From a virus: DNA of 42,155 nucleotides. A model generated the notes under the pieces. That model did not search any database, was not told the origin of the DNA, and saw nothing but the letters and a program-made list of their open reading frames with translations. Both the position numbers and the translations under genes were made by a program. How positions within the stretch are numbered: the first letter of the stretch is position 1; each line of letters opens with the position of its first letter. Where the stretch lies: positions 1 to 42,155 of IMG/VR virus record IMGVR_UViG_3300042310_000739; one strand, given 5' to 3'. Below, piece after piece: positions 13,170 to 29,608 of the stretch.

Positions 13170-14890
13170 TTCCTACCCTCCGTGTTCTCCGTGTCCTCCG
13201 TGGTCAAACCCTTCTTCTGAACCGGCCCATCAGGAATCATCTTCTCAGCCGCATTCCTCTCCACGCCATACAGGTTCATCAAATTGATAATCGCGCTTTC
13301 GCGATCCAAAATCCCTTCGCCCACATTTTTCAGCAACTCCAAAAGCGGCTTCACATCCAGCCCCTGCGGAACGAGGCCTGGCGGCGGCGGCTGTGGCGGC
13401 TCGGCCATAGCGGCAAGGGCTTGGGTCGGATTCGGGATGCGTTGATTAAAGAGTTCGATCGGCACACCCGTCTCGGTGGCGACTCGCTGCATATAGGCCA
13501 CCTCGCTGGCGCTGCGGCGCACCACTTCCTCGAAGCTCTGGCCCGTCTCGGAAATCAAGTCCGAGGCGGTGACGAGTCCACTTTGGAGCATCTGCAAATT
13601 GGCCGAAGTGTCGTGGCCGTAGTCTCCTGTGAGCGAACGCCCGAATCCCCACCGCCCATTGCGCCATTGAGGGTGCGGCGGCAACTCGCCCATGCCGATG
13701 CCGTAGCCAATCACGGCATCACGGACGGGATTCAATGCCCGCTCGCCGACGAGCTTTTGCAGGCGGCGGATGCCGCGCATGGCCTGAGCGATCTCGATGC
13801 GCCCTGTGTGACCGCTGAAAGCCGTCATGTCGTAAAGGAAGCCGTAAGGCATATTCAGCCCGCTCGAAATCTCGCGAACCAATACCTGCACCAGCGCCAT
13901 GAACGCCCCTCCGGGACGATTCGTGCCGGGCGCAAAAGTGATGTCTTCGCCCGCCGCGAGCTTTTGGATTTTCCCTGGGGCCACTTCCATTAAGCCCATG
14001 TTCGTCTGCGATTTGTTCCCCATGGTCGTGCCGTTCCACGCGCTCACGCCGCCATCACCCCGAGTCGGATCGGGCGTCTTCAAGAACCCCGCATAGCCCG
14101 CCTGCCACTTCGCGGCGGTCTTTTCAAATTGGTAAATCTCGTAGAGATCGCGGGCGGGCGCAATCGCCGTAGCCAAGGCTGTGACGCCGCGATACTGATC
14201 CACCCGCTGAGGGTCAAAGATATGAATGAACTGATCGGCAGGAATCTCGCGGTCAAACGAATACATCGCCGTGCGGCGGTCGCGCTTGAAGATTTTGTAG
14301 CTCAACGGGCGGCCCACAGGATCGACTAAAATCCCGCCGATATTGCTCTCCTCGCCGGGGGCAATCGGGTTGTTCGGGTCGCCGATTCGATCCGCTTCGA
14401 TCGGTTGAATTTTAGGCACTTGCTTGCCATCCTCATCCACCGAGACAATATGCCAGCCGTGATCGCCATCCACGATCATCGCCCACACCATCATATTCAC
14501 CAGATCGCCGAGCCGGTGACGCCCCGTGATGTCGGCCCGCTCGCACCATTGATGGAAGAAGTCTTGGTAAAGGGAGTCGATTTCCTCATCCCCCGTCTGC
14601 GACACATACTGCACGGTATCCGCCACATACTGCACGATGCGAGCCACGATGCCACGCAGGAGAGCGAAGTTCCGCACCACATCCCGCGCATCCCACATCA
14701 AGATCACCCGATCCCGCTGCATCCGCCAAGTCTCGGACGAGGCATTTTTGTTTCTGCCACCGCTCCCGCCACGCGCCGCGCCAGGATGCGCCGCATCGTA
14801 GCCGAACGCCTTGAGCTTCTCCCGCGCAAACGCCCGCTGAACGCCCGCTTGGGGATTGAGAAACGAAACCGCACGATCCAGAAAGTTCAT
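13166..14890 (-). CDS. Portal protein (lambda gpB-like family)
   Basis: 574 residues, slightly longer than lambda gpB. Features typical of this family are the N-terminal RDRVILMWDARDVVRNFALL region, WAMIVDGDHGW, IQPIEADRIGDPNN, the FDREIPADQFIHIFDPQRVDQYRG block and the stem and clip region (REISSGLNMPYGFLYD followed by AFSGHTGRIEIAQA). The portal is the dodecameric gate for DNA packaging and exit. The last 12 residues (LTTEDTENTEGRK) come from an ACGGAGGACACGGAGAACA-type repeat and look like an added low-complexity tail. The gene is followed at once by the HELIH protein. Confidence 0.9.
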   Translation of the reverse strand: MNFLDRAVSFLNPQAGVQRAFAREKLKAFGYDAAHPGAARGGSGGRNKNASSETWRMQRDRVILMWDARDVVRNFALLRGIVARIVQYVADTVQYVSQTGDEEIDSLYQDFFHQWCERADITGRHRLGDLVNMMVWAMIVDGDHGWHIVSVDEDGKQVPKIQPIEADRIGDPNNPIAPGEESNIGGILVDPVGRPLSYKIFKRDRRTAMYSFDREIPADQFIHIFDPQRVDQYRGVTALATAIAPARDLYEIYQFEKTAAKWQAGYAGFLKTPDPTRGDGGVSAWNGTTMGNKSQTNMGLMEVAPGKIQKLAAGEDITFAPGTNRPGGAFMALVQVLVREISSGLNMPYGFLYDMTAFSGHTGRIEIAQAMRGIRRLQKLVGERALNPVRDAVIGYGIGMGELPPHPQWRNGRWGFGRSLTGDYGHDTSANLQMLQSGLVTASDLISETGQSFEEVVRRSASEVAYMQRVATETGVPIELFNQRIPNPTQALAAMAEPPQPPPPGLVPQGLDVKPLLELLKNVGEGILDRESAIINLMNLYGVERNAAEKMIPDGPVQKKGLTTEDTENTEGRK

Positions 14891-17856: not shown

Positions 17857-17888
17857 GATATATATACTTATGTATAAGTATGTATATC
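17857..17888. promoter_or_regulatory. 32-bp AT-rich imperfect palindrome
   Basis: Arms GATATATATACTTA and TAAGTATGTATATC pair with one mismatch around TGTA. It lies about 100 bp upstream of the leftward operon start and just before the tandem repeats. Likely a protein-binding operator or an unwinding element. Confidence 0.6.
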
Positions 17889-17916
17889 TCGGGAAGTGGA
17901 TTGCCGGGCGCGCCGG

Positions 17917-18147
17917 GCGCGTTTCAATGCGTGCCACGCTTTGTATTTATAGTGCGACCTTCGCGCGGTTTTCCTGCGCGCGGGGCGCGCGGGGCGCGTT
18001 TCAATGCGTGCCACGCTTTGTATTTATAGTGCGACCTTCGCGCGGTTTTCCTGCGCGCGGGGCGCGCGGGGCGCGTTTCAATGCGTGCCACGCTTTGTAT
18101 TTATAGTGCGACTCGCGCGCGGTTTTTTACTTGCGCGCGGGGCGCGC
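17917..18147. repeat. Three 77-bp tandem direct repeats (iteron-like)
   Basis: The unit begins GTTTCAATGCGTGCCACGC at 17921, 17998 and 18075, an exact period of 77 bp. Copies 1 and 2 are identical through the unit; copy 3 diverges after TTTATAGTGCGAC. Each unit holds the palindrome GCGTG-C-CACGC, an AT-rich TTTGTATTTATAG stretch and a GCGCG-rich tail. The whole period repeats, not just a short piece, so it is not a CRISPR array. Iterons of an origin, or tandem promoters or operators for the rightward operon, are the best guesses. Confidence 0.85.
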
Positions 18148-18166: not shown

Positions 18167-19090
18167 ATGCAAGACCTTAAAACAAAACCAATAGACGACC
18201 TCGCGCGCATCATCGCGCGGCGACTCGAAACCCTACACATGGGCGGACGCCTTCGCGACAAAACGGGCGCGCCCGTGAATTCCACGGGAACGGGAATTCC
18301 CCTTTCCACCATAGACCGCGAGGAAATTTTCCTCGCGGCAAGGTGCGGCGTAATCTGCGCGAAGCATCGCGAGGATGATTTCCTCGCACAATGGCGCGCG
18401 GCATCGCGCGAAGCGCGCGCGGCGTTGTATCGGATCACGAAGTGCCCGACCTTTTCCACGCGCGCGGCGGCCATTACGGGCGGCGAACGGGCGCGCGAGC
18501 GTTTCGAGGAAACGCTCCCCGAGGCGGAAATTTCCGAACGGGCGCGACTTGATTTCAATCCGCCTGACCGCGAGGAAAAACCCTTCGCGGTTTTGTATCG
18601 GGGCGCGCGCTCCGCTTTATTAGAGCATTGGCGGCACAAAACCGCCTTCGCACATTACAACCGCATCGCGAAGGATTTTCGCGCGAGCATGGAATTACTT
18701 TCCAAGCTCGCGCGCGACTCGCGCGACGGGCGTTTTGTCCTCGCGCACGGGCGCGGCAGGAACAAAGCGGAACAAAACCGCATTGAACGCTTGCACCAAT
18801 GCGTTTTGCACGGGCGGCGCATTCTTGAAATTTCAAAACCGCGCGACCGCGCGCCACGCCGCGAGGCTATCGGCGCGCTTGCGCCACGCGCCACGGGAAC
18901 GGCGCAAGCGGCGAAAATCATCATCATCGGCGGGCGCGCATCATCGCGCGCGCCACTAACCGCATTTGACTGGGAAGCCACGCAAGCGGCGCGCGACCTC
19001 GCGAAAAATTTTCCAAGCATCGCGAGGAAAATCGCGCCACGCGCCACGCGCGGCGAAATTGAATCCCTCGCGGCACATTTCCACGCATAG
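18167..19090 (+). CDS. Unknown 307-aa basic protein of GCGCG-rich composition
   Basis: 307 residues, Arg- and Ala-rich (DDLARIIARRLETLHM, ALYRGARSALLEHWR-like helical blocks), no known domain. Its Ala codons are largely GCG and Arg codons CGC, giving dense GCGCGC runs unlike most genes in the window; nearly every 60-base stretch has a GCGCG word. It directly follows the 77-bp repeats, so a replication-initiation or repeat-binding role is tempting, but no Rep motif is visible. The composition suggests foreign origin or selection on the DNA itself. The gene ends at a strong GC hairpin. Confidence 0.7.
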   Translation: MQDLKTKPIDDLARIIARRLETLHMGGRLRDKTGAPVNSTGTGIPLSTIDREEIFLAARCGVICAKHREDDFLAQWRAASREARAALYRITKCPTFSTRAAAITGGERARERFEETLPEAEISERARLDFNPPDREEKPFAVLYRGARSALLEHWRHKTAFAHYNRIAKDFRASMELLSKLARDSRDGRFVLAHGRGRNKAEQNRIERLHQCVLHGRRILEISKPRDRAPRREAIGALAPRATGTAQAAKIIIIGGRASSRAPLTAFDWEATQAARDLAKNFPSIARKIAPRATRGEIESLAAHFHA

Positions 19091-19096
19091 GAAACG

Positions 19097-19149
19097 CCGC
19101 GCGCGCGCGAGCATCGCGCGCGCGCGGTCTTATGCGTAAGACTTTTTTT
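19097..19149 (+). terminator. GC hairpin followed by palindrome and T7 run
   Basis: Arms 19097-19109 and 19115-19127 form a perfect 13-bp stem of alternating C and G with the loop AGCAT; alternating CG of this length can adopt Z-DNA. It runs straight into GTCTTATGCGTAAGAC (19127-19142), itself a hairpin, and seven T (19143-19149). The second hairpin plus T run reads as a rho-independent terminator. Confidence 0.75.
19127..19142 (+). repeat. GTCTTA-TGCG-TAAGAC palindrome, copy 1
   Basis: First of the family of 16-18 bp palindromes restricted to about 19.1-29.6 kb. Here it is followed by T7 and could terminate transcription. Confidence 0.85.
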
Positions 19150-19180
19150 AAATAGATAAAACATTCCATCCGTCAAATTT

Positions 19181-19834
19181 ATGAGATACATCATTCACAT
19201 TCAAACCGCCCAACGGAAATCCGCTGGCGCGCCGGTGTCGATACACGGGCGCGGCCTGACCGATACCCCCTCTGGGCCGTCCGAAATTATTAGCGGGAAA
19301 TACAAAACCGCGAAACCCGAGATCATCGCGAAGACCAAGCGCGCCGCCGCCATCGCCGAACTTAAAGAGCAAACCGCCACGGCGCGCGCGCGCTTTTACA
19401 CGGCAAAATTAAAAGGCATGGAGCGGCCATCCGCCCCCGATTACACCTGGGCCGAACCCGCCCCGCGTGTGCAATGGGAGGATTGGAAAATAGACTTCGG
19501 GGCCGACGAAAAACCACGACCCGCCGCCGCCGCCGCTCCCGACTTTTCCATTGAAAGCGGCCCCGCTTATTTCCCGACTGGCAAGACCAAGAAAAACAAA
19601 GCTGGGGAAACGAAACCCGAAATGCTTCCCGCTGGCGAAAAGGCGGTTGTGACCATCGGCCAGCGGATTTACTCCGTCCTCACACGATCCAAGCGTGTGA
19701 CCTCCCGCTTTGGAAATTGCAAGCAATCCATGCCGCTGGCGCAAGCCGTGAAAAACATCGCGCGCATGGCTGGCGAGCAAGCCGCGCAAGACGCGCGCGC
19801 CGCCTTCCTCGCGGCGGCTCCGGGGCTGGAATAG
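19181..19834 (+). CDS. Unknown 217-aa basic protein
   Basis: 217 residues from the ATG in context AAATTTATGAG. Basic N-terminal half, Pro/Ala-rich middle (KPRPAAAAAP) and a C-terminal helical region (VKNIARMAGEQAAQDARAAF). The segment VTIGQRIYSVLTRSKRV followed by TSRFGNCKQSMP looks folded. It shares the GCGCG-rich codon use of the preceding gene, more weakly. No family recognised. Confidence 0.65.
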   Translation: MRYIIHIQTAQRKSAGAPVSIHGRGLTDTPSGPSEIISGKYKTAKPEIIAKTKRAAAIAELKEQTATARARFYTAKLKGMERPSAPDYTWAEPAPRVQWEDWKIDFGADEKPRPAAAAAPDFSIESGPAYFPTGKTKKNKAGETKPEMLPAGEKAVVTIGQRIYSVLTRSKRVTSRFGNCKQSMPLAQAVKNIARMAGEQAAQDARAAFLAAAPGLE

Positions 19835-20041
19835 CCCCGCGAGCATTTTTCCCCCTTCACTTTCTGCCGTCGATCCCAACTTGGTGATCGGGCACCCCAC
19901 GCCGTCCATCTCGGATTGGTGATTTTTGATTTTCTGCGCAATGCGGATCCCGCCCGTATTGTGTCTGCGCTCCGCTTCGCGAGTCTTATTCGTAAGACTC
20001 GCAAGTGAGAGTTTTCAAAGCGGGCTGTTAGAAAACTGAAT
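19835..20041. other. Intergenic region with UUCG-loop palindrome
   Basis: 207 bp without a gene. A near-direct repeat around TTGGTGAT occurs twice (near 19880 and 19915), and one copy of the palindrome family (19979-20002) lies 40 bp before the next gene. A promoter is likely but none is distinct. Confidence 0.5.
19979..20002 (+). repeat. GCGAGTCTTA-TTCG-TAAGACTCGC palindrome, copy 2
   Basis: Same arms as the other copies but a stem of 10 bp and a TTCG loop instead of TGCG. UUCG and UGCG are both UNCG-type RNA tetraloops, which hints at a folded RNA. Confidence 0.8.
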
Positions 20042-20917
20042 ATGCCGAAACGAAATACCACAAGCGTCCCGTGCGCTATCACATTCGCGGAGGCTGAGGG
20101 ATTATCCCAAGCCGAACGCATTATGAGATTCAAAATCGAATCAAGTGCCGGTCAGCGAGCTTTCGCTGGCATGGCGAAACTATTCCGCGCTATGGAGGCC
20201 AATCTAGCTCCTGGCGAAGCCATCTTCCCGCTCCTTATCGGAGCCGGAATCAAGAAGGGAACCGTGAGCAATGCCTCCATTGCCGCCTCCGTGTATGATC
20301 TTGTCCGCGATGGCAAGATGCTGGAGACGGAGTTTGACCAGCTCTCCTTCAACGATTGCTGGCAGACCAAGCGAGTCCTCTCCAAGGGATCGAAGAAACA
20401 GCTCTCCGTGGATGCCGTCGTGACGGCTATCCGCGAGCGAAACGACTTCGCCGATGAGTTTGCCGCGCTCTATGAGCATGGCATGACCGCCGAGCAGAAA
20501 GCCGCCAAGGAGGCCGAGGCCAAATCCGCCAAGGAAGCCAAGGAGGCCGAGGCCAAGAAACAAGCCGATGCCGACAAGAAGGAGCTGGAAACCCTGCGGG
20601 CTCGGGAGGCGGAACTCAAGAAGCAAGCCGACCAAAAACCCAAGGAAATCGAAGCAAAATCCGACGCTCCGCCAGCAAAATCCAGCAAACCCGATGCAAA
20701 ATCCCAGCCGCCCGAGCCTCCCGAGGAGGAGGAATTGGCGGAACCGCTCACGGCGGAGTTGCTTATCGAGCAACTCACCGAGATCGAGCTGGCGATGGCG
20801 CAACTCTCCGATGGGGAGCAATCCATTGTCGGGGCCAAGCTGGTCGAGATGGCCAGCGCGTTTGTCGAATCTGGCAAACCCGTGGCCAAGCGCAAGAAAC
20901 AACTCCTTGCCGCCTAA
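20042..20917 (+). CDS. Unknown protein with coiled coil (291 aa)
   Basis: 291 residues. Residues 1-140 look globular and helical (FPLLIGAGIKKGTVSNAS, then VYDLVRDGKMLETEFDQLSF). Residues about 148-215 are a Lys/Glu/Ala coiled coil built on EAKSAKEAKEAEAKKQAD. After a Pro-rich linker comes a helical end (LLIEQLTEIELAMAQLSDGE). It opens the rightward section that holds the Ub-like cassette and is closed by a strong terminator. It does not resemble PRTRC protein E as I know it. Function unknown; a scaffold or DNA-associated role is possible. Confidence 0.75.
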   Translation: MPKRNTTSVPCAITFAEAEGLSQAERIMRFKIESSAGQRAFAGMAKLFRAMEANLAPGEAIFPLLIGAGIKKGTVSNASIAASVYDLVRDGKMLETEFDQLSFNDCWQTKRVLSKGSKKQLSVDAVVTAIRERNDFADEFAALYEHGMTAEQKAAKEAEAKSAKEAKEAEAKKQADADKKELETLRAREAELKKQADQKPKEIEAKSDAPPAKSSKPDAKSQPPEPPEEEELAEPLTAELLIEQLTEIELAMAQLSDGEQSIVGAKLVEMASAFVESGKPVAKRKKQLLAA

Positions 20918-20924
20918 AGTAAAA

Positions 20925-20957
20925 GGCGGGGCGCACACGCGCCCCGCCTCTCTTTTT
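20925..20957 (+). terminator. Rho-independent terminator
   Basis: Perfect 10-bp stem GGCGGGGCGC / GCGCCCCGCC with the loop ACAC, then TCTCTTTTT. It lies 8 bp after the stop of the 291-aa gene. Confidence 0.92.
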
Positions 20958-20989
20958 CCTAAAACACATTTTATCCGTCCATTTGATTT

Positions 20990-21187
20990 ATGAGTAAAAA
21001 TGACTTTCTCTCCACCGCCGAGGATCTGGCGGTATCCATCGCTGGCCAATCACTCAACGCCAGCCCCAAGGAATTTTCCACCGGCAGCGTAGGCTACCAC
21101 ATCAACGGAAAAATCACCCTCGCCGACGGCACACGCCTCCAAGTGAGCGGCAATGCCGTGGCGATTGGGTCGAAAGATTGGGAATGA
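20990..21187 (+). CDS. Small beta-rich protein, unknown
   Basis: 65 residues, ATG in context GATTTATGAGT. A helical start (FLSTAEDLAVSIAGQSL) and a beta-hairpin (GYHINGKITLADGTRLQVSG). Its TGA stop shares its last base with a palindrome copy. No family recognised. Confidence 0.65.
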   Translation: MSKNDFLSTAEDLAVSIAGQSLNASPKEFSTGSVGYHINGKITLADGTRLQVSGNAVAIGSKDWE

Positions 21188-21204
21188 GTCTTATGCGTAA
21201 GACT
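21187..21204 (+). repeat. AGTCTTATGCGTAAGACT palindrome, copy 3
   Basis: 18 bp, begins on the final A of the preceding TGA stop codon. Arms AGTCTTA/TAAGACT, loop TGCG. Confidence 0.9.
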
Positions 21205-21225
21205 TGACGCAAGCAAACGATATGC

Positions 21226-21291
21226 GGCGGCGTCCGCGCCGACTGGAACTGATAGAACTCCATGGCGGTTCAACCCCGCCTGCCGCCGCCA
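21226..21291 (+). ncRNA. tRNA-like element with acceptor and T arm, reduced middle
   Basis: 5' GGCGGCG pairs with TGCCGCC (one G-U), followed by G and an encoded CCA (21289-21291). A perfect T arm (GGCGG, TTCAACC, CCGCC) is at 21264-21280. Only about 29 bases lie between T8-C9 and the T arm, too few for normal D and anticodon arms, and I find no clean anticodon stem. It may be a decayed tRNA, a tRNA mimic or a regulatory RNA. It sits 7 bp before the next start codon. Confidence 0.5.
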
Positions 21292-21298
21292 AATCTTT

Positions 21299-21559
21299 AT
21301 GAACCCTTCCTCCGAGTTAGCCATCGAAACGACGCCGCTGTTCTGGGATTGCGAATGTGCCGAAGAATACATCCACCCCGCAACGCAGGACGAGTGCGAG
21401 CATTGCCATGCCGAAAAAGAAAATAGCCCAGACGCCCGAGTGTCAGAGGTGGAGAGGCTTTTAGCTCCCAGCCGATGCACTCCGCAAGAATCTCAAGACG
21501 CTATAAATCTCATGGCCAAGTATTTCACGCCAAACATCACAGCTTACTTCACTCAATAG
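21299..21559 (+). CDS. Small cysteine-rich (zinc-binding) protein
   Basis: 86 residues. WDCECAEEYIHPATQDECEH, then CHAEK, gives Cys pairs C-x-C and C-x-x-C with nearby His, a likely zinc site. The C-terminal half is helical (AINLMAKYFTPNITAYF). ATG in context TCTTTATGAAC. No family recognised. Confidence 0.65.
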   Translation: MNPSSELAIETTPLFWDCECAEEYIHPATQDECEHCHAEKENSPDARVSEVERLLAPSRCTPQESQDAINLMAKYFTPNITAYFTQ

Positions 21560-21561
21560 CC

Positions 21562-21690
21562 ATGCGCCGCCAAAACCTACTTTGGGAAACACCCCGCCAG
21601 CGCGAATACCGCGCCGCGAAAGAGAAGTTCTTTAACCGACTGATGCTGCTGATACTGATTATCTGCGCCATCATTTTCATATCGTTATGA
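21562..21690 (+). CDS. 42-aa single-pass membrane protein
   Basis: 42 residues: a basic N-terminus, then one hydrophobic segment LMLLILIICAIIFISL at the C-terminus. Starts two bases after the preceding stop and overlaps the next gene by ATGA, which supports translation. Confidence 0.6.
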   Translation: MRRQNLLWETPRQREYRAAKEKFFNRLMLLILIICAIIFISL

Positions 21691-21857
21691 AAATCCAAAC
21701 CGCGACCCACCTGGATCTGTGGAAACAGATCCGAAAGCCAACTCCTCCCCCGACCCGAGCGCACAAGCCAAGAAAAGAAGAATTCATGGATTGCCGCAGG
21801 GAGATTGCTGAAATTTTAGAGGATTTGACTAAAAAAATCCGCCATGTCGATTACTAA
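21687..21857 (+). CDS. 56-aa small protein, unknown
   Basis: 56 residues, basic and Pro-rich first half (RKPTPPPTRAHKPRK), helical second half (CRREIAEILEDLTKKIRHV). Coupled by ATGA to the membrane peptide and overlapping the next gene by 14 bp. Confidence 0.55.
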   Translation: MKIQTATHLDLWKQIRKPTPPPTRAHKPRKEEFMDCRREIAEILEDLTKKIRHVDY

Positions 21858-22059
21858 CCGCGCCCGAGCCCATCGCGCCAAAAAATCCCTAAAACACTAC
21901 AAACGCCGCCACCTCAAAGAAGGCGGCTCCCCCTGCGAAGACACTTTGACCGACTTTCTCACGGATACCATGCACTTGTATCCGATCAGCCAAATCGCGG
22001 CCTGCCTCCATGCCGCCAAGCTGAATTACCTTGCGGAAGCTAACGAGCCGAGGGCCTAA
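21844..22059 (+). CDS. Small basic protein, unknown
   Basis: 71 residues. Basic N-terminus (NRARAHRAKKSLKHYKRRH) and a helical end with DTLTDFLTDTMHLYPISQIA. The stretch TLTDFLTDTMHL looks like a conserved phage small-protein pattern, but I cannot name it. Confidence 0.65.
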   Translation: MSITNRARAHRAKKSLKHYKRRHLKEGGSPCEDTLTDFLTDTMHLYPISQIAACLHAAKLNYLAEANEPRA

Positions 22060-22195
22060 CGAGCCCTAGTCAGCACCCACTGATGAGATGAAGCTGGTCG
22101 TTCCAGCAATAAGGGGGGTGGCGACCGCCGTGCCCGCTGCCGGCCAGCGATAGCTTGCTTCGCCCTCACAGGCTGAAGCAAGCAGCCGCTTTTTT
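22060..22195 (+). promoter_or_regulatory. Structured leader with terminator-like hairpin before next gene
   Basis: 136 bp without a gene but with several hairpins: GCTGG-TCGTT-CCAGC (about 22091-22105), CACCC (about 22074) pairing with GGGTG (about 22117), GCTG-CCGGC-CAGC (about 22137-22149), and GCTTGCTTC / GAAGCAAGC (22153-22161, 22175-22183) with GCC/GGC inside. The last hairpin is followed by AGCCGC and a T run ending at the ATG of the next gene. It could be an attenuator or a small structured RNA. I do not recognise a known riboswitch. Confidence 0.5.
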
Positions 22196-22384
22196 ATGAA
22201 AAATCAATTCCTCGTCGTCGCTAAAAATGATGACGATTGCGAAGCCCCGCTCGCGCTCCTTACCCGCAGGGTTTTCCCATCTTACATAGATGCCAAGCAT
22301 TATGCGGACGAACAGGAAATTGCGCACCGGAATCCGCAAGTCGTGGAGTGCCATTTCCCCATCCCTCCCGACCTCTACATATAA
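22196..22384 (+). CDS. Small protein, unknown
   Basis: 62 residues starting KNQFLVVAKNDDDCEAPLAL, with a helical YIDAKHYADEQEIAHRNPQV part. Such short strand-helix proteins that end in YIDAKHYADEQ-like helices are frequent in phages. Its ATG follows the T run of the leader hairpin, so expression may depend on read-through. Confidence 0.6.
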   Translation: MKNQFLVVAKNDDDCEAPLALLTRRVFPSYIDAKHYADEQEIAHRNPQVVECHFPIPPDLYI

Positions 22385-22464
22385 CCCCCCTTCACTTTCG
22401 AGCCCGCTGGCTCACCTCGCCGCGTGTCGAGTTATTAACACGCTGATTAGAAAGGGAAACGATC

Positions 22465-22689
22465 ATGTTGATCAAACTCAAATCCGGCCTCAACGCGCTG
22501 GATGTGGATGTGCCCGAGGGCACGACTGTTGGGCAGATCCTGTCCAACGCAAACTACGCCGCCGTGCTGAACTTCGACACTTCGAATGTCGAGGGTCTGA
22601 TCGGTGGCGCCAAGGCGAACTCCGACACCGTTCTGTATACGGGAGACACTCTCCTGATTCAGAAGCTGGCGCACTCGAAGGCCGTCTAA
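22465..22689 (+). CDS. Ubiquitin-like beta-grasp protein (PRTRC protein C-like role)
   Basis: 74 residues with the beta-grasp pattern: strand 1 MLIKLKSG, strand 2 ALDVDVPEGT, helix TVGQILSNANY, then the late strand TGDTLLIQKL typical of ThiS, MoaD and ubiquitin-like folds. AGGGA lies just upstream of the ATG. The next genes are E2-like and E1-like, which strongly supports its being the protein that is activated and transferred. The C-terminus reads AHSKAV and has no Gly-Gly; either no conjugation through a diglycine occurs, or a different end or an unprocessed tail is used. Assignment rests on pattern and neighbourhood. Confidence 0.72.
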   Translation: MLIKLKSGLNALDVDVPEGTTVGQILSNANYAAVLNFDTSNVEGLIGGAKANSDTVLYTGDTLLIQKLAHSKAV

Positions 22690-22700
22690 AAACCACGATC

Positions 22701-22745
22701 GCCGCGCTCGCAGAGTCTTATGCGTAAGACTTTGCGTTGCGCGGC
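22701..22745 (+). repeat. Long imperfect hairpin around palindrome copy 4
   Basis: AGTCTTATGCGTAAGACT at 22714-22731 is embedded in outer complementary arms GCCGCGC (22701-22707) and GCGCGGC (22739-22745), with CGCA/TGCG between them. It sits between the Ub-like and E2-like genes and could attenuate or protect the transcript. Confidence 0.8.
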
Positions 22746-22768
22746 GGTTCGTTTTTAAAAAAAACCAA

Positions 22769-23467
22769 ATGGACTCTACTTTCTACATCATCGACCAAGA
22801 CGGACGCCTTGGCCGCGCCAACATCACCCGCGTGGATAATGCAGGCACACTACTCAAGAACATCGCCCGTGAGGCGCCGGTGGTTTTGCGGAATTTCCCC
22901 GACGAGGGGTATCACTTCAAAGCCAGCAGCACCGACTTGATTCTCGCCAAGAAGCTTAACTCGATCAAGCTCACCACGCATTTCGCTCCGATCACGCTGC
23001 CCGATGGCACTGCTCGCATTACGCCGGTGTTTTACGACAACGGCATGAGCATCGAGCAGAGCATGGACTTCACCCCGCCGTCGGGGCATGAGTTCTGGTT
23101 CTTCGTGCGCTTTGATCAACTGCAACAACCCAAAGACGAGTTCTTGGCTTGGCACATCCTAGACGACAACATTTACCGACCGCCTTTCTCCAACACCTAC
23201 GAAGATGGCCGCATCTGCATGGGGAATACCTATCAGCGCAACCTCCACCAAGGTAGCATCAGAGCCAAGTTCGACGCGGCCTTGGAGTGGTTCCAAGGGG
23301 CCAAGTCCAACTCCGACTTGCGACCCGACGCTCCGCCCATTCCGTTTCTGCTATGGGATCCCACCAGCATGGAGCAAGACAACCGAGGTTTTTCTCCAAC
23401 AAATGCCCGTAACTGGCTTCGCCCCCGCAGCTTATCTGGATACACCTTTGACGGATTTTTCTCATGA
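22769..23467 (+). CDS. E2-like ubiquitin-conjugating protein (PRTRC protein B-like)
   Basis: 232 residues. The block PPFSNTYEDGRICMG (Cys150) matches the E2 active-site neighbourhood, where a conserved Asn and G-x-I/V-C-L/M precede the catalytic Cys. Upstream, EFWFFVRFDQLQQPKDEFLA forms the central strands. The length and late position of the Cys fit PRTRC system protein B, which has been described as E2-like. The expected role is to accept the Ub-like protein from the E1 as a thioester. A palindrome hairpin lies upstream; the next gene overlaps by ATGA. Confidence 0.8.
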   Translation: MDSTFYIIDQDGRLGRANITRVDNAGTLLKNIAREAPVVLRNFPDEGYHFKASSTDLILAKKLNSIKLTTHFAPITLPDGTARITPVFYDNGMSIEQSMDFTPPSGHEFWFFVRFDQLQQPKDEFLAWHILDDNIYRPPFSNTYEDGRICMGNTYQRNLHQGSIRAKFDAALEWFQGAKSNSDLRPDAPPIPFLLWDPTSMEQDNRGFSPTNARNWLRPRSLSGYTFDGFFS

Positions 23468-23700
23468 GTAACTTATTTAACCGCCTAGAAGACGCTTACT
23501 GGGCCGCCGCCCCGTATTCCAGCCCGTGGGATGAGCGCGAACAAGCCGAGGAGTTCATCCACGAAATCGTCTCCGATTTCAGCCCAGCCGATATCATTGA
23601 ACTCAAAAAAGCATGGCAGGTGCGAAGCGCGCTGCCGCGCCCTAACGATGAAAATGAAAATGCCGTGAATGCCCTGCTATCAACTCTTGCCCACTTATGA
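23464..23700 (+). CDS. Small protein between E2-like and E1-like genes
   Basis: 78 residues, acidic and helical (DEREQAEEFIHEIVSDFSPA, then DIIELKKAWQVRSALP). It overlaps the E2 stop (ATGA) and ends 4 bp before the E1-like start, so it belongs to the cassette transcript. No family recognised. A partner or substrate of the system is possible. Confidence 0.7.
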   Translation: MSNLFNRLEDAYWAAAPYSSPWDEREQAEEFIHEIVSDFSPADIIELKKAWQVRSALPRPNDENENAVNALLSTLAHL

Positions 23701-23704
23701 ATTT

Positions 23705-24403
23705 ATGAAGACACACATTATTGGCTGCGGCGGCGTGGCCAGCTATTTTCTGCCGCCGTTTCTTAAAACATTGCGCTACGACGCCAATCACAAGCGCCGA
23801 CGCGCCGTGATCCTGCACGACGGCGACGCCTTGGAGGAGCGCAACTTGCAGCGGCAGAACTTCGCGCAATCCGCCATTCGCGCCAACAAAGCCGAGGCCC
23901 TCGCCTTGCAATTCGACTGGTATTCCACCTTGGAAGTCAGCCCGCGCTATATCGACGCCGCCTTCCGCGTGGATGAGTGCGATACCATTATTATCATGGC
24001 CGACAACCACCTGGCTCGCCGCCATGCACTGGATGCCGCCGACCGCGCGGCAGGCGTTCATGTTCTTTCTGCCGCCAACTCCACGATTGGCGCAGAGGCA
24101 TGGTGGTATGACGCCGATCGAGACAAAGACTCACCCCGCGACCCGCGCGTGCGCTGGCCGGAAATCTTGACCGATGAGAGCGGATCCCCCATCCATGCCG
24201 AGGGGTGCGCCTCGGAGTCCCGACTTCGCGATGTGCCACAAACTCCGATCGCCAATTTTATGGCGGCAAGCCACCTGCTGCTGCTCTGGAATTTCGTATT
24301 CAATGAGCGGCCCAAGCTCGACGCCAAGATGACCCGCGATTTCTGGCCGATCTCCTTCTCCAACACCGCCACCTCCACCGAGACTCTCCGCTACGCAGCG
24401 TGA
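23705..24403 (+). CDS. ThiF/E1-like adenylating enzyme (PRTRC ThiF family)
   Basis: 232 residues from ATG at 23705. A nucleotide-binding start IIGCGGVASYF (GxGGxx), then HDGDALEERNLQRQNF, the E1/MoeB/ThiF signature with the D, N and RQ that bind ATP and Mg. DTIIIMADNHLARRHAL follows, then NSTIGAEAW. Cys168 in EGCASESR, a short way before an N-x-M-A-A helix (IANFMAASHLLLLWNF), is the candidate thioester Cys, as in PRTRC ThiF proteins. It would adenylate the Ub-like C-terminus. Stop codon shares its A with palindrome copy 5. Confidence 0.88.
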   Translation: MKTHIIGCGGVASYFLPPFLKTLRYDANHKRRRAVILHDGDALEERNLQRQNFAQSAIRANKAEALALQFDWYSTLEVSPRYIDAAFRVDECDTIIIMADNHLARRHALDAADRAAGVHVLSAANSTIGAEAWWYDADRDKDSPRDPRVRWPEILTDESGSPIHAEGCASESRLRDVPQTPIANFMAASHLLLLWNFVFNERPKLDAKMTRDFWPISFSNTATSTETLRYAA

Positions 24404-24420
24404 GTCTTACGCATAAGACT
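24403..24420 (-). repeat. AGTCTTACGCATAAGACT palindrome, copy 5 (reverse orientation)
   Basis: Reverse complement of copies 3 and 4. Begins on the A of the E1-like TGA stop and ends 2 bp before the next ATG. Confidence 0.9.
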
Positions 24421-24422
24421 TT

Positions 24423-24986
24423 ATGAGCAATCCAATCGAAGCCCCGCGCCCCGAAGCGCCACCCTACACTTGGCCCAACCAAGACCTCAAGAACCTCGTG
24501 CAGCTCGCACCGATGTCCCCCTACACCCGAGCTTTGCTGCGCATCAAATTCAACCGCCCTGTCCCTGATGCCTGCACCACCTTCGAGCAGATCGAAGCGT
24601 GGCTCGCTACATTCCCCAAGGCCATTCAGCCCAAGCCGACTTCCCGAGACGAAGACTCTCCGTGGCGTCGGCGAGCTGCGGAAATAGCGCGCAGCGAATA
24701 TATCGCCGTGGAAGCCACAATGAGTGGATCGGAAACGCGATATGTTCCGTGGAGCAAATCGGGAACCATAGATGTGCCCCTTTCCGTATGGGAAAGCGGC
24801 CAGCGGGCCGTGGAAGAGTTTGTCGAATCGGAGCTGAACGACTTCGATTCCGATTATGACGAATATAACATAAATTACGGCGACTCCGACACCGATGATT
24901 TTACGATAGAAGATGATTTGGATGACCTTATGGAAGAAGCCGAAGCCGCCATCCGCGCGCGCGACGGCGTTGAAGACGAAGATTAA
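24423..24986 (+). CDS. Tandem paralog A of unknown function
   Basis: 187 residues. Residues about 4-62 (from IEAPRPEAPPYTWPNQDLKN to EQIEAWLAT) are identical to the next gene; the rest is only loosely similar, with shared anchors (SEYIAVEA/GEYLAIEA, VPLSVWE/VPLSIWE) and a very acidic end (DSDTDDFTIEDDLDDLMEEA). No known family. Position between E1-like and JAMM genes suggests a target or adaptor of the Ub-like system, but this is inference. Palindromes flank the gene on both sides. Confidence 0.75.
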   Translation: MSNPIEAPRPEAPPYTWPNQDLKNLVQLAPMSPYTRALLRIKFNRPVPDACTTFEQIEAWLATFPKAIQPKPTSRDEDSPWRRRAAEIARSEYIAVEATMSGSETRYVPWSKSGTIDVPLSVWESGQRAVEEFVESELNDFDSDYDEYNINYGDSDTDDFTIEDDLDDLMEEAEAAIRARDGVEDED

Positions 24987-25003
24987 GTCTTACGCATAAG
25001 ACT
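24986..25003 (-). repeat. AGTCTTACGCATAAGACT palindrome, copy 6
   Basis: Begins on the last A of the TAA stop of paralog A and lies 9 bp before paralog B. Confidence 0.9.
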
Positions 25004-25012
25004 CTTAAAAAA

Positions 25013-25561
25013 ATGAGCACAACAATCGAAGCCCCGCGCCCCGAAGCGCCACCCTACACTTGGCCCAACCAAGACTTGAAGAACCTCGTGCAGCTCGCAC
25101 CGATGTCCCCCTACACCCGAGCTTTGCTGCGCATCAAATTCAACCGCCCTGTTCCTGACGCCTGCACCACCTTTGAGCAGATCGAAGCATGGCTGGCGAC
25201 TTTGACGCCACCAAAAAGAACGCCCGCTCCGTATGTCGATCCATACGCCGAGCAACACTTACGCGAAACCCTAGAAATCGAACGCGGCGAATACCTGGCA
25301 ATCGAGGCCAACCAAGAAGGGTGGGATCTCCGGAAAGAGTTCTGGAGGAAACGCGAACAGATTAAAGTGCCGCTCAGCATTTGGGAGGAAGGGGAATGCG
25401 CCGTAATAGAATACGCCGAAGAATGGCTCAATAATTGCGATCAAGATGTTTATGACTCAGATTACGGAGGAGACGGCGACTCGGACGATATCTGGATACG
25501 AGATTTTGGCGACCTCATCCAAGAAGCCGAAGAGAAGATCGCAGAGCGAGACGAAGATTAA
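25013..25561 (+). CDS. Tandem paralog B of unknown function
   Basis: 182 residues, paralog of the preceding gene. The 59 shared N-terminal residues are identical, and all nine base differences over those codons are synonymous. The C-terminal part is divergent but of the same design (GEYLAIEANQEGWDLRKEFW, then VPLSIWEEGECAVIEY) with an acidic tail (YDSDYGGDGDSDD). Flanked by identical palindromes, which may have promoted the duplication. Confidence 0.75.
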   Translation: MSTTIEAPRPEAPPYTWPNQDLKNLVQLAPMSPYTRALLRIKFNRPVPDACTTFEQIEAWLATLTPPKRTPAPYVDPYAEQHLRETLEIERGEYLAIEANQEGWDLRKEFWRKREQIKVPLSIWEEGECAVIEYAEEWLNNCDQDVYDSDYGGDGDSDDIWIRDFGDLIQEAEEKIAERDED

Positions 25562-25578
25562 GTCTTACGCATAAGACT
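25561..25578 (-). repeat. AGTCTTACGCATAAGACT palindrome, copy 7
   Basis: Begins on the last A of the TAA stop of paralog B and ends 2 bp before the next ATG. Confidence 0.9.
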
Positions 25579-25580
25579 CA

Positions 25581-25838
25581 ATGAAAAATGCTTTTGTCTT
25601 TTTAATTTTCTTTGCCGCCTCCTTCTTTATCGGGGCAGCTCCGATTCTGTTAGTGATCGGGGTGATCTGGCTGCTTGCTTGCTGGCAAGCGAAGGATGGC
25701 CCAGACGACGGCGGCTCCGAAAGCTACACGCCCCCACCAACACCACCCACCCATCACTACACCCCGCCACCTCAACCACCCCGTTACCGCCGCACACGAT
25801 CTTCCCCTAGAACAAGAAACACAAGTCCCATAATATGA
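25581..25838 (+). CDS. Small membrane protein with Pro/His-rich tail
   Basis: 85 residues. Two adjacent hydrophobic stretches (AFVFLIFFAASFFIGAAPIL and LVIGVIWLLACW) are followed by an Asp/Gly linker and a tail rich in Pro, Thr, His and Arg (TPPPTPPTHHYTPPPQPP). Probably an inner-membrane anchor with a cytoplasmic or external Pro-rich tail. The stop overlaps the start of the JAMM gene. Could tether the system to the membrane; inference only. Confidence 0.7.
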   Translation: MKNAFVFLIFFAASFFIGAAPILLVIGVIWLLACWQAKDGPDDGGSESYTPPPTPPTHHYTPPPQPPRYRRTRSSPRTRNTSPII

Positions 25839-26899
25839 CTATACTCCAACACGACAAGAAGTTCTACGAGCTTCGCAACCTCGGCAATGGCTTTATCGGC
25901 CATGTGCCATCATCTGTCACGATCATCGACGGCGCGCCTGCCATGCGGTGGTCTGGTTCAAAAATCCCGCAAGCAGTCTGGCGAGAAATCGTCGGCTTCT
26001 TCCAATGGAGCCAAGAGGAAACCAAGTCCGAGACGCAAGTGCGCCTCCTGCTCAACGCCGATACCGGCGAGTTTAAAGCGTGGGCATTCCCACAAAAATA
26101 TGGCACTGGCATGACGGCCAAAGAACTCTCCGACCACGCAGATTACGAGCGCCAGCTCAACGAGCAGATGGCGGGCGGCAACTGGATCAAGTTTGGCACT
26201 GTCCACCACCATTGCTCCGTGGGCGCCTTTCAGTCTGGCACCGATTCCTCCGACGAAACAGAAATGGGCATCCACATCACACTCGGCAACATCGGAAGTC
26301 CGCGCCACTCCATCCACGGACGAGTCAGCCTCACCATCCCTGGCACACTCGCCCCCGACGGCGCACTCGCCACCAAAGCCTCGCACGCCTACTATCCCGC
26401 CGTGTTTTCCGACTGGTTCGACTCCCCCGAAATGCCGATCCCACTTTCCGAGAATTTGCGCGAGGAAATCACGAAGCACATCCTCTGCACTCCCGTAGAA
26501 AAACCAGAGTTCCCACCCGCTTGGGCTGAGAATTTGATCAAAGACATCCCTCTCGCCATCGCGGCAAACGCACCGCTTGGTCACTGGAAAAGCCAAAATC
26601 CAACTACCCTCGAATACTACGACGACGAATATCGCATCCGAGACGCAGAGGAATACCACAACCGAGCCCGCTATTACAATAGCTACCCCACCGCCAATTT
26701 AGATCAAGCGGACATTATTGTAGAAGAAGTCATGAAAAAAGAAGGACTCACCCAAGCCATGCTATATGGCATGATTGTCGCCGACCCTCACCTGCTTACA
26801 AAAGATGAACAAGATGTGATAGATTCACTTCAAGAACAACTAGATAAGGTCGGTGCCACATATCAAGACTACTTAGAAAATTGCGGTTATGTTGTTTGA
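25835..26899 (+). CDS. JAMM/JAB-domain metalloprotease (PRTRC protein A-like)
   Basis: 354 residues. GTVHHHCSVGAFQSGTD carries H124-x-H126-x7-S134-x2-D137, an exact match to the JAMM zinc motif; a Glu around 62-66 in QEETKSETQV is the candidate fourth catalytic residue, before the LLLNADTG strand. JAMM enzymes cut isopeptide or peptide bonds after Ub-like proteins. The C-terminal 170 residues are extra and unrecognised, ending in an acidic helical part (QDVIDSLQEQLDKV). With the Ub-like, E2-like and E1-like genes just upstream it completes a conjugation and removal set. Confidence 0.85.
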   Translation: MTILQHDKKFYELRNLGNGFIGHVPSSVTIIDGAPAMRWSGSKIPQAVWREIVGFFQWSQEETKSETQVRLLLNADTGEFKAWAFPQKYGTGMTAKELSDHADYERQLNEQMAGGNWIKFGTVHHHCSVGAFQSGTDSSDETEMGIHITLGNIGSPRHSIHGRVSLTIPGTLAPDGALATKASHAYYPAVFSDWFDSPEMPIPLSENLREEITKHILCTPVEKPEFPPAWAENLIKDIPLAIAANAPLGHWKSQNPTTLEYYDDEYRIRDAEEYHNRARYYNSYPTANLDQADIIVEEVMKKEGLTQAMLYGMIVADPHLLTKDEQDVIDSLQEQLDKVGATYQDYLENCGYVV

Positions 26900-27098
26900 A
26901 ATTTCCAGAGACGATCAAGAGCGGTTGCTGCGCATGGCGGCAGCCGCCGCCGCCAACTTGGCGGTGGAGGTGATCTTGGCTACCGAGCCCTTCAAATCCT
27001 CCCTCCCACCACGCCACCAAGTCATCGAACTTCCCGCGCCCAAGCCCGTGCGCAAGCGCAAGCCCAGCAAACGCAAAAAGCCAAATGTATCAGCCTAA
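26889..27098 (+). CDS. Small basic protein, unknown
   Basis: 69 residues, overlapping the JAMM gene by 11 bp. Helical Ala-rich start (RLLRMAAAAAANLAVEVIL) and a Lys/Arg/Pro tail (PVRKRKPSKRKKP), so possibly DNA- or RNA-binding. No family recognised. Confidence 0.65.
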   Translation: MLFEISRDDQERLLRMAAAAAANLAVEVILATEPFKSSLPPRHQVIELPAPKPVRKRKPSKRKKPNVSA

Positions 27099-27231
27099 AA
27101 CAAAAACGCCTTGCTCATGCAAGCGTGGAGTAGAACGCGATAACTGCCCTGCTTGCGAAGGCACGGGACGGCGAATCGACTTTGCGGCCATACGAGCACG
27201 CACCAATCCAACCAATAATGAAAAGCAGTAA
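27085..27231 (+). CDS. 48-aa DnaJ-type zinc-finger peptide
   Basis: 48 residues. CSCKRGVERDNCPACEGTG contains two Cys pairs with the CxxCxGxG flavour of DnaJ central zinc fingers. It overlaps both neighbours by 14 bp. Short phage zinc peptides like this are common; function unknown. Confidence 0.6.
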   Translation: MYQPKTKTPCSCKRGVERDNCPACEGTGRRIDFAAIRARTNPTNNEKQ

Positions 27232-28273
27232 TTTACTGCAGTCCTTGATGGCCGCCGCGAAAGCCCACGCCACGGCCCCAGGAGATTTCGAGCACGCTGC
27301 CGCGCATTTCAACGAAATGTTCCCGAAAGATGCCGAGTCTTACAAAAAGACTTCCATGCGCGAAAAAGTGGAGATGGTCGAGCAAGCCTTGCCGAAAGTC
27401 TTCTCTCAATACTACCCACGCAAATATGCCGCCGCAGGAGGCTACACTTCCCCAAAAATTCCCGCCGCAGCACTCACCGCTACACAAGTCGCCGCCGAGT
27501 CTTGCCATGCGTATTTTGGCTCCGCGCACAGCGACATCGACCCCGTGCTGAACAACATGGCCACCATGGGGCAAGCCCTTCGCGAGCACTGGATGCCTAT
27601 CTACTGGGTCGGGCGGGATCTCGCTCAATCCGCCCTTGCCACCGAGCCGCCAGAATCCCTCCGCCCGAGCGATCTGAGTATGCCGCTCGACGCCATTTTG
27701 TTCTTGCTCCCCGAAAAAACCCTCCTCACACCGACTGGCGCGGACGCGTCTTGGGTGACTATCTGCAAAGCGGAAACCCACAACGGACACAGCGCCCTCG
27801 CGATCGGAACTTCCTCGCTCGAAGACGATGTATCCTACACAGCCCACCTTAAACACGACGAAACATTATCTGCGCACGAAACTCGACCCACTGGCGAATT
27901 CCACCCCGTCGGAGGGAAGGTGGCCGAACTCAACTCCGAAGACACTGGGTTTTCCAGAAAAATGGTGCGGCTGGCAATCACCCTCGTGATGCTCATGACC
28001 GCCCGACCCGCCTTGGTGGAAACGCCCACCAAAGCCGGGCCGCCGCCTACAACTGGAAAGGCCGCCCGCAAGCTTGCCGCACCAAACTGGATCGGACGCA
28101 CCTACCGCAGCGCCCGCAGCGAATCCGCTGGCGGCACCCACGCCTCGCCTCATGTGCATTGGCGGCGCGGTCATTGGCGTCACCAAGCCCACGGCCCCAA
28201 ACTCTCCCTCCGCAAAGACCTCTGGATCGAACCCATGATCATCGGAGCAACCGCCGAAGCCATGGCCGCATGA
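27218..28273 (+). CDS. Unknown 351-aa protein with RRGHWR C-terminal motif (AcrVA2-like?)
   Basis: 351 residues from ATG at 27218. The C-terminal part reads ASPHVHWRRGHWRHQAHGP, then LWIEPMIIG. This motif, with a Trp-Ile-x-Pro partner some 20 residues later, occurs in a broad phage and plasmid protein group to which, as I recall, AcrVA2-type anti-CRISPR proteins are related; I cannot confirm it here. The N-terminal half is helical and the middle contains LDAILFLLPEKT. A palindrome-like piece (27336-27352) lies inside the coding region. Coupled by ATGA to the next gene. Confidence 0.75.
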   Translation: MKSSNLLQSLMAAAKAHATAPGDFEHAAAHFNEMFPKDAESYKKTSMREKVEMVEQALPKVFSQYYPRKYAAAGGYTSPKIPAAALTATQVAAESCHAYFGSAHSDIDPVLNNMATMGQALREHWMPIYWVGRDLAQSALATEPPESLRPSDLSMPLDAILFLLPEKTLLTPTGADASWVTICKAETHNGHSALAIGTSSLEDDVSYTAHLKHDETLSAHETRPTGEFHPVGGKVAELNSEDTGFSRKMVRLAITLVMLMTARPALVETPTKAGPPPTTGKAARKLAAPNWIGRTYRSARSESAGGTHASPHVHWRRGHWRHQAHGPKLSLRKDLWIEPMIIGATAEAMAA

Positions 28274-28566
28274 AAATCCACCCCCTGCTCGATGCGTTAA
28301 AAGCAATTCAAAACTTGGCCGAAAACACCTCAAAAGCATTCCCTAATGCCCCAGGAGCCAGCGATTGGAAGCAAGTTATTTTTATAGTGGGAGATGCCAT
28401 CGCCAAGCTCGAGCGCGACCAGCTCATCGCTGCCGAGCTTTTAGCCGCCTGCCAGAACGCCGCAAACATCTTAGCCGCGCTCGCCACTGGGCAGCTAACC
28501 GCCATTCAACGCGACAGCTCCGCGCTCTCACAGCTCCGCGCCGCCATCGCCAAAGCCTTGAAATGA
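28270..28566 (+). CDS. Small helical protein, unknown
   Basis: 98 residues, all helical: LLDALKAIQNLAENTSKAF, then QLIAAELLAACQNAANILAA and SALSQLRAAIAKALK. Start overlaps the previous stop (ATGA) and the stop overlaps the next start. The middle resembles phage proteins carrying an LLAACQNA motif; function unknown. Confidence 0.7.
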   Translation: MKIHPLLDALKAIQNLAENTSKAFPNAPGASDWKQVIFIVGDAIAKLERDQLIAAELLAACQNAANILAALATGQLTAIQRDSSALSQLRAAIAKALK

Positions 28567-28763
28567 AACAACCCGACCAAACAACCCAACTCAATGAAGA
28601 ACAAATCTTGGCAATCAAATGCGCCCACGCCGACCTCATTGGCGCGCTGCAAGCCTATGAAGCACTCGACATCCATGTTCATGACTGGAAAGCCCACACC
28701 CGCTCGATTGAAGAACTCGAACAAGCCTTTGATTTCATAGAACCCATGCTAGATAAAATATGA
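28563..28763 (+). CDS. Small helical protein, unknown
   Basis: 66 residues, helical (NEEQILAIKCAHADLIGALQ, then HTRSIEELEQAFDFIEPM). The pattern is that of small acidic phage proteins. Coupled by ATGA on both sides. Confidence 0.7.
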   Translation: MKQPDQTTQLNEEQILAIKCAHADLIGALQAYEALDIHVHDWKAHTRSIEELEQAFDFIEPMLDKI

Positions 28764-29176
28764 GCAAAGCCAGCACCCAACAATACGCCGAAGCCACAGA
28801 AATTTACGAAAAGGCAGGGCAATACGCCGTCTACGATTTTGCCGACGACATAGGGATCACCTCTTGGGCCTATTGCGAAGCCTGCGAAGATTCCACCCCT
28901 GACTGCTCCGACAATTCCTGCTTGGTCTGCGGATCACCAAAAAAACAACCGGCAGGGAAATTCAAAATCCAAATGGCTGCCCCTTTCGGGGAATGGGGCG
29001 ACCTCAAAGGATGCGACGATCACTCGAATTACGAAACAGAAACCTTCTCATCCATAGAAGAAGCACGCGCGACCATCGAAGAACTGCAAGGCGATCTTAG
29101 CGAATACAAAATCGATCTTAGCGAATACAGAATCGTCCCCGAATCACACCCTCAACACATTGATTTCTATGAATGA
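28760..29176 (+). CDS. Zinc-ribbon protein, unknown
   Basis: 138 residues. CEACEDSTPDCSDNSCLVCG carries four Cys in two pairs for zinc. The C-terminal half has a helix and a repeated LSEYKIDLSEYRI segment. It overlaps both neighbours. No family recognised. Confidence 0.7.
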   Translation: MSKASTQQYAEATEIYEKAGQYAVYDFADDIGITSWAYCEACEDSTPDCSDNSCLVCGSPKKQPAGKFKIQMAAPFGEWGDLKGCDDHSNYETETFSSIEEARATIEELQGDLSEYKIDLSEYRIVPESHPQHIDFYE

Positions 29177-29360
29177 AGATTACATTCGGTTTCCTTATTT
29201 TGTCGGCAGACCCATCCTTTCCTCCGAATACCGGATCGCTGAAAGCACCACCGGATTCGGCTGGGTGTGCGTGGAAAAATGGGACGGCGCAAAAGGAAAC
29301 TATACCCCCCTCACTTCTTTCCGCTCTTTAGAGCAAGCCATCGAATTTTGTAATTTATGA
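29169..29360 (+). CDS. Small protein, unknown
   Basis: 63 residues from ATG at 29169. Beta-rich start (YFVGRPILSSEYRIAEST) and a helical end (SFRSLEQAIEFCNL) that looks like the usual single-domain phage accessory fold. Overlaps its neighbours. Confidence 0.6.
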   Translation: MNEDYIRFPYFVGRPILSSEYRIAESTTGFGWVCVEKWDGAKGNYTPLTSFRSLEQAIEFCNL

Positions 29361-29590
29361 AAACAGACTGGGAGAAAAAAGCCAAAGCCTGCCTCGTAGG
29401 CAGGAAAATCACAGGAGTCCGCTGGATGGAACGAGACGAAGCCGACGACATGGGCTGGAGTCGGCGAGCCATCGTATTGCAACTCGACGACGGGAACCTC
29501 ATCTACCCGAGCATGGACGACGAAGGCAATGACGCAGGAGCCTTATTCACCAACGACCCGAAAAACCCCTGCTTCCCCGTATTTGACTAA
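29357..29590 (+). CDS. Small acidic protein, unknown
   Basis: 77 residues. KACLVGRKITGVRWMERDEA, then SRRAIVLQLDDGNLIYPSMD, is a beta-rich pattern resembling small phage proteins with an 'IVLQLDDG' strand. Start lies in TAATTTATGAA and overlaps the previous stop. Confidence 0.65.
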   Translation: MKTDWEKKAKACLVGRKITGVRWMERDEADDMGWSRRAIVLQLDDGNLIYPSMDDEGNDAGALFTNDPKNPCFPVFD

Positions 29591-29608
29591 AGTATTATGC
29601 ATAAGACT
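29591..29608 (+). repeat. Degenerate palindrome copy 8
   Basis: AGTATTATGCATAAGACT: one change in the left arm and TGCA in the loop. It follows a TAA stop at once, and the ATG inside it (29597) starts the next gene, so the element here forms the 5' end of a coding sequence. Confidence 0.75.

Follow-up and report, generated by a model that had tools for sequence, protein, structure and literature searches.

The stretch of DNA analysed here (the window) is an IMG/VR virus record in its entirety, 42,155 bases long. Matches of minus-strand genes to a major head protein (130-1125; phrog_1005, E = 4e-33) and to a portal protein (13166-14890; phrog_21, E = 1e-49) identify it as a tailed phage, and from about position 19,000 the plus strand forms a separate module that holds a divergent ubiquitin-like cassette. 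Within this cassette, two genes follow each other in direct tandem on the plus strand, paralog 1 (24423-24986, 187 aa) and paralog 2 (25013-25561, 182 aa), both with the same two-part build of a homogenised N-terminal half and a divergent C-terminal half with a pI of about 4. The homogenised segment comprises codons 5-63 of paralog 1 (IEAPRPE...WLAT; 24435-24611) and positions 25025-25201 in paralog 2. At the DNA level, the repeat shared by the two genes extends over 191 nt (24423-24613 and 25013-25203) and is 94% identical.

From I5 to T63 the two proteins are identical at 59 consecutive residues, and the nine bases that differ, located in eight codons, are all synonymous. After T63, 49 of 116 aligned residues match (42%), and the motifs RGEY, VPLS[IV]W and DDL..LM..AE are common to both C-terminal halves; the paralogs are therefore homologous over their full length and are not unrelated tails on one front. 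A previous sequence-only reading had correctly delimited the two ORFs at 24423-25561 as tandem paralogs and had counted the 59 identical codons and their nine silent base differences as we find them. It was also right that the C-termini diverge, but its description of what they share as scattered anchors does not hold in view of the 42% identity and the common motifs.

Distribution of the paralog family

Besides the window, four IMG/VR contigs (L007, L008, L009 and L012) carry the family, which amounts to nine genes including those of the window in a sample of only four distinct lineages. Paralog 2 of L007 is 98% identical to paralog 2 of the window. Two copies are present in L007, L008 and L012 and one in L009. 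A profile scan with the N-terminal half only returned the same four contigs and none further, and no relatives of the paralogs were detected in sequenced genomes, phage records or plasmids. Further copies and other C-terminal variants, which the sequence-only reading had proposed to look for, were thus found as members of the family in four contigs, and no loose C-terminal cassettes were seen. A single-copy relative devoid of N-terminal conservation would have spoken against a constrained N-terminal module; the single-copy L009, however, keeps 51-52 of the 60 N-half residues. Two other IMG/VR records, L033 and L034, picked up with a degenerate DNA pattern for APMSPYTRA, are chance antisense matches and not relatives. 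In all five contigs the genes come in the same order, E1, paralog(s), small membrane protein and JAB, and in L008 a 62-aa ORF separates the E1-like gene from copy 1.

AlphaFold2 models of the two paralogs, calculated from an alignment of nine sequences, are of middling confidence (pLDDT 71.6 and 77.2, pTM 0.46-0.50). Both models predict helices at residues 20-28, 33-43 and 54-63, followed by a weak, low-confidence linker at about 64-76. Beyond the linker come a helix, a long beta hairpin, further helices and one more at the C-terminus, and this region is modelled as alpha-beta-beta-alpha. The homogenised stretch ends where the first modelled, helical domain ends. Neither Pfam profiles, applied to every member, nor NCBIfam profiles match the paralogs, PDB sequences give nothing at E<=10, PHROGs give nothing convincing and PADLOC gives no match. 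Foldseek searches with these models of limited confidence have best E values of 0.35 in the PDB and 0.013 in BFVD and suggest no convincing fold. By these comparisons the libraries searched contain no description of the family, which is seen in one small group of tailed phages and not outside it.

Resemblance of the cassette to PRTRC-type systems

That the pair is situated inside a ubiquitin-like cassette, as had been proposed from the sequence, is supported by profile and hhalign comparisons of its plus-strand neighbours. A candidate for the ubiquitin-like protein (22465-22689, 74 aa) has no profile match of its own and ends in AHSKAV without a terminal glycine; this C-terminus reads AHSKA(A/V) in all five contigs. 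An E2-like gene related to Prok-E2_D and PRTRC_B (22769-23467), with an invariant cysteine in DG(R/K)ICMG, comes next, followed by a gene for a small protein of 78 aa (23464-23700) and by the ThiF-type E1-like gene (23705-24403). The 78-aa gene, in whose position L008, L009 and L012 have a similarly sized gene, is fast-evolving (dS 0.24 between the window and L007) and ends just upstream of the E1-like start. The E1-like ORF called mechanically opens at 23669, and comparison with relatives fixes its start at 23705. On the other side of the pair, and always after the paralog(s), lies a gene for an 85-aa protein of small membrane type with a hydrophobic N-terminus and a Pro-rich tail (25581-25838). 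It is followed by a JAB/JAMM-like candidate (25835-26899) with an invariant HHHCxxGAFQSGTD and a hypervariable C-terminal tail, the signature HxHx7SxxD being invariant in the four lineages. With this JAB-like protein as query, no relatives were found in genomes and phage records.

The E1-like protein matches PRTRC_ThiF with E = 4.3e-7 (29.5 bits, cut-off 144.75), and hhalign aligns it with the PRTRC ThiF of Sulfuricystis at 97% probability and 31% identity over 180 columns. For the E2-like protein, the L009 ortholog scores 25.4 bits against Prok-E2_D, over the Pfam cut-off of 25, and the window copy scores 19.9; with its invariant active-site cysteine the protein is an E2-like protein of the B (Prok-E2_D) kind, at a score below the PRTRC_B equivalog cut-off. 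The JAB-like protein has no Pfam match and matches PRTRC_A weakly (E = 0.0043, 16.6 bits, cut-off 101.8). The ubiquitin-like candidate does not match PRTRC_C and has no C-terminal glycine, whereas canonical PRTRC_C ends in GTKG. No match to PRTRC_E, PRTRC_F or ParB was obtained among the proteins scanned, which are a subset of the ORFs.

The window cassette shares with PRTRC systems, or operon type 6d (Iyer et al., 2006; PMC1779556), an E1-like ThiF protein, a Prok-E2_D/PRTRC_B-like E2, a small ubiquitin-like candidate and a JAB-like protein. Operons of type 6d carry an extra protein that is rapidly diverging and largely alpha-helical (Iyer et al., 2006), and the fast-changing paralogs are reminiscent of it. 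In contrast to PRTRC systems, the proteins of the window cassette score far under the NCBIfam cut-offs, its gene order differs from the order E-C-hp-hp-B-A-ThiF of Sulfuricystis pSTJ1, and it is carried by a tailed phage. Its paralogs match no PRTRC component either; as candidates for E, F, C or hp they were rejected after hhalign comparison with seven proteins of the pSTJ1 PRTRC region, none of which exceeded 15%. The cassette therefore looks like a divergent PRTRC-type cassette that is not assigned as a PRTRC member, most thresholds being missed, and presumably it works like a PRTRC system. A search of the open literature for PRTRC returned incidental mentions only.

Orthologs of the gene at 20042-20917 are located upstream of the cassette in L007, L008 and L012; its product of 291 aa has a charged tail rich in Ala, Lys and Glu and weakly matches a DNA-binding protein of plasmid replication. 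A DNA polymerase sliding-clamp-like protein is encoded downstream of the cassette in L008 (11936-13009; phrog_947, E = 1e-20) and L012 (9156-10229), and the PRTRC cassette of the Sulfuricystis plasmid also adjoins dnaN.

Bil ubiquitin-like conjugation systems employ E1, E2 and JAB components with the same logic as the window cassette. PADLOC E1-E2 models match the E1-like protein weakly, and no match to a CD-NTase was obtained among the proteins scanned. Type II CBASS (PMC10097602) follows this E1, E2 and JAB logic as well; unlike in Bil and in type II CBASS, the window has separate genes for E1, E2 and the ubiquitin-like candidate, and these reside in a phage.

Homogenisation of the N-terminal halves

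Within one phage, dS between the N-halves of the two copies is 0.21 in the window, 0.18 in L007, 0.31 in L008 and 0.10 in L012, and between the C-halves it ranges from 1.15 up to saturation, a range that indels in the C-half alignments can inflate. Codons for the same residue point in the same direction: silent differences affect 8 of 59 such codons in the N-half versus 22 of 49 in the C-half of the window pair (Fisher p=0.00045), 11/59 versus 22/45 in L008 (p=0.0014) and 2/54 versus 24/51 in L012 (p=1e-7). In comparisons between distant lineages, the silent contrast between N- and C-half is not significant. There, N-half dS (window versus L008, L012 and L009) amounts to 0.8-1.9, so the silent sites of this segment are free to change, and a pure codon or RNA constraint is ruled out by these differences between phages.

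Phylogenetic trees of the two halves conflict. The N-half tree joins the two copies of L012 (support 99/98), and grouping of L008 copy 2 with L012 copy 2 is rejected (AU p=0.005). The C-half tree joins precisely L008 copy 2 with L012 copy 2 (support 90/94), and marginal AU tests disfavour joining the two copies of L008 (p=0.037) or those of L012 (p=0.0498). The L012 copies also have in common an identical run of 129 nt and the same derived T-to-N change. The features of concerted evolution are thus found, in that silent likeness within a genome exceeds that between orthologs and trees of converted and unconverted parts clash. The conflict between the trees and the silent-site identity argue for partial gene conversion atop purifying selection, and we are confident that partial gene conversion has acted on this two-part protein. 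In N-half trees of the window and L007, copy 1 groups with copy 1, with weak support, which suggests that the last conversion there is older than the split between these two phages.

The junction between the copies, palindrome included, is common to L008 and L012, and the duplication therefore predates the split of these lineages, so that conversion must have followed duplication. Alternatively, the gene might have been duplicated recently in each phage, one of the copies then receiving a new back half by recombination with another phage, in which case the fronts would simply be young duplicates. Such a history would agree with the single-copy state of L009 and with the C-half of copy 1, which looks non-orthologous between L008 and L012, being saturated beside flanks that have diverged little. 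However, not only the junction but also the two-copy layout is common to L008 and L012, and their copy 2 C-halves group together; several independent duplications at the same place would be needed, and we consider this course of events unlikely.

Conversion is not the only force on the front half. Between distant lineages its dN of 0.07-0.20 is far below dS, and 45-54 of 60 residues are kept, which indicates that purifying selection, too, acts on the N-half protein. Extreme protein constraint alone, with no exchange of DNA between the copies, would fit this conservation between phages but is very improbable as the source of the N-half identity, given how much lower dS is within a phage (0.10-0.31) than between phages and given the lineage-specific residues shared by both copies of one phage. 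Both suggestions of the sequence-only reading, an N-terminal module under strong constraint and a 5' half repeatedly homogenised by gene conversion, are thereby borne out, and it is the second that accounts for the silent-site identity.

Evolution of the C-terminal halves

When dN/dS is calculated by segment between the window and L007, a check that had been recommended along with the original observation, the C-halves of the two copies give 0.83 and about 1. Over whole genes the paralogs give 0.59 and 0.67, and the other whole cassette genes 0-0.35. The excess of amino-acid changes in the C-half is significant (Fisher p=0.004) and, judged by these rates, little else in the cassette evolves as fast as this part; the substitution counts are small and compatible with relaxed as well as with diversifying selection. 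Between L008 and L012, silent sites in the C-half of copy 1 are saturated, with 25 of 47 same-residue codons differing, in contrast to 72 of 380 in the E1 gene, both N-halves and the membrane-protein gene (p=1e-6). C-terminal parts, including the C-half of copy 1, have probably been exchanged with unsampled phages, a signal that misalignment at low identity can exaggerate.

The JAB-like protein (25835-26899) is a second protein of the cassette with a constant front and a variable end, its tail after residue 230-240 or so being hypervariable beside a conserved catalytic part. Silent sites of this C-terminal tail are saturated between the L008 (8839-9909) and L012 (6809-7888) proteins (29/57, p=8e-7).

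Paralog families with a constant N-terminus and a variable C-terminus that are kept by recombination are known from the shufflon pilV and from phage Bro/KilA-N proteins. The present pair resembles them in its conserved and recombination-homogenised front and its diverse back. It differs from them in consisting of two complete genes in direct tandem, with no loose C-terminal cassettes seen, in the context of a ubiquitin-like cassette. A literature search on gene conversion of tandem phage paralogs retrieved nothing relevant.

Possible roles of the paralogs

On balance, we lean towards an account in which the two genes are old tandem paralogs of a new two-domain family built into a divergent PRTRC-type ubiquitin-like cassette. 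The front part of 60 codons has been copied between them, its protein being under purifying selection as well. The acidic back part escapes conversion and changes fast, and for copy 1 the probable route of this change is exchange with other phages. The front helical domain might be a docking part that fits one constant partner of the cassette (E1, E2, the ubiquitin-like protein or JAB), the back domain might meet variable partners, and the pair could serve as alternative adaptors, or specificity factors, leading the cassette to two different targets. The sequence-only reading had named targets or adaptors as candidate roles. That of paired adaptors, suggested by the position and evolutionary pattern of the paralogs, is the likeliest of the roles considered here but is put forward tentatively, and we would sooner doubt than assert it. 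Since L009 manages with one copy, two adaptors would not be obligatory. More doubtful still is the wider picture of a tailed phage with its own ubiquitin-like conjugation cassette and a pair of interchangeable adaptors, whose front domains would stay identical through gene conversion so as to fit the enzymes and whose swappable back domains would select host proteins.

Fast evolution of the C-half, its pI of about 4 and the 21-31 D/E among its last 60 residues would also suit acidic decoys, or anti-defence proteins of a DNA-mimic kind, that merely share the operon and whose C-halves vary in step with the defences of the host. We give this limited credence, because the genes keep a fixed place between the E1 and JAB genes in five contigs, a strictly conserved, non-acidic N-half would be left without a role, and matches to PADLOC, PHROGs or known folds were not obtained. 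The paralogs could, in turn, be substrates of the ubiquitin-like system, the N-half being a recognised tag and the C-half its cargo; they adjoin the E1-like gene, and the conserved N-half has two invariant lysines, K23 and K42. Yet the C-halves are poor in lysine (1-5, with almost none in the last 60 residues), and rapid change in a mere substrate would be left unexplained, which makes this role quite improbable.

Target choice in bacterial ubiquitin-like systems is still largely an open question. If the paralogs are adaptors, the boundary between the converted and the diversifying part already separates a putative enzyme-binding part from a putative target-binding one, both short enough to be used directly in pull-downs. 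The locus documents partial gene conversion on tandem phage genes and a phage-borne relative of PRTRC cassettes, neither of which was found in the papers and collections searched.

Dispersed hairpins

Three palindromes of 18 nt lie before, between and after the paralogs, at 24403-24420, 24986-25003 and 25561-25578, the first starting on the last base of the E1-like stop codon and the second on that of the paralog 1 stop codon. They are identical (AGTCTTACGCATAAGACT), as the sequence-only reading had noted; however, they are not specific to the pair and belong to a dispersed set at ORF ends. Further sites of the hairpin AGTCTTA-N4-TAAGACT, confined to the rightward module, are found at 19126-19143, 19982-19999, 21187-21204, 22714-22731 and 29591-29608, the set at 19126-29608 comprising seven good copies and one degenerate copy where 0.01 would be expected by chance. 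In four of the eight copies the first base of the hairpin is the last of a stop codon, and in another the hairpin starts 1 nt after the stop codon. As AGTCTTA-N(3-4)-TAAGACT it is found repeatedly in the rightward module of each of the five contigs, often starting at the last base of a stop codon, with a spacer of mostly 3 nt in L008 and L012 and mostly 4 nt in L007 and L009. The copies at 19126 and 22714 have a terminator-like context, with a T-run after them and a larger GC stem around. From this distribution, the element looks like a sequence-specific RNA hairpin at ORF ends or an operator.

The palindrome between the copies is also present in L007, L008 and L012, and the one after paralog 2 is absent there in L008, L009 and L012. 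At the paralog locus, L008 and L012 have the middle palindrome only, yet their N-halves are homogenised, and judged by its placement the hairpin is without evident part in conversion. Identical 18-mers on all sides of the window copies might be taken for sites of recombination or mobility through which the gene was moved or duplicated in cassette form, but this is highly improbable and the palindromes were rejected as cause of the duplication, given the same hairpin at many unrelated ORF ends, the terminator-like contexts of two copies and the state of L008 and L012. Elsewhere in the window, a GC-rich unit is repeated in tandem at 17870-18140, where the ORF reads GARGARFNACHALYL / RPSRGFPARGARG repeatedly and CGCGCGGGGCGCGCG palindromes are present.
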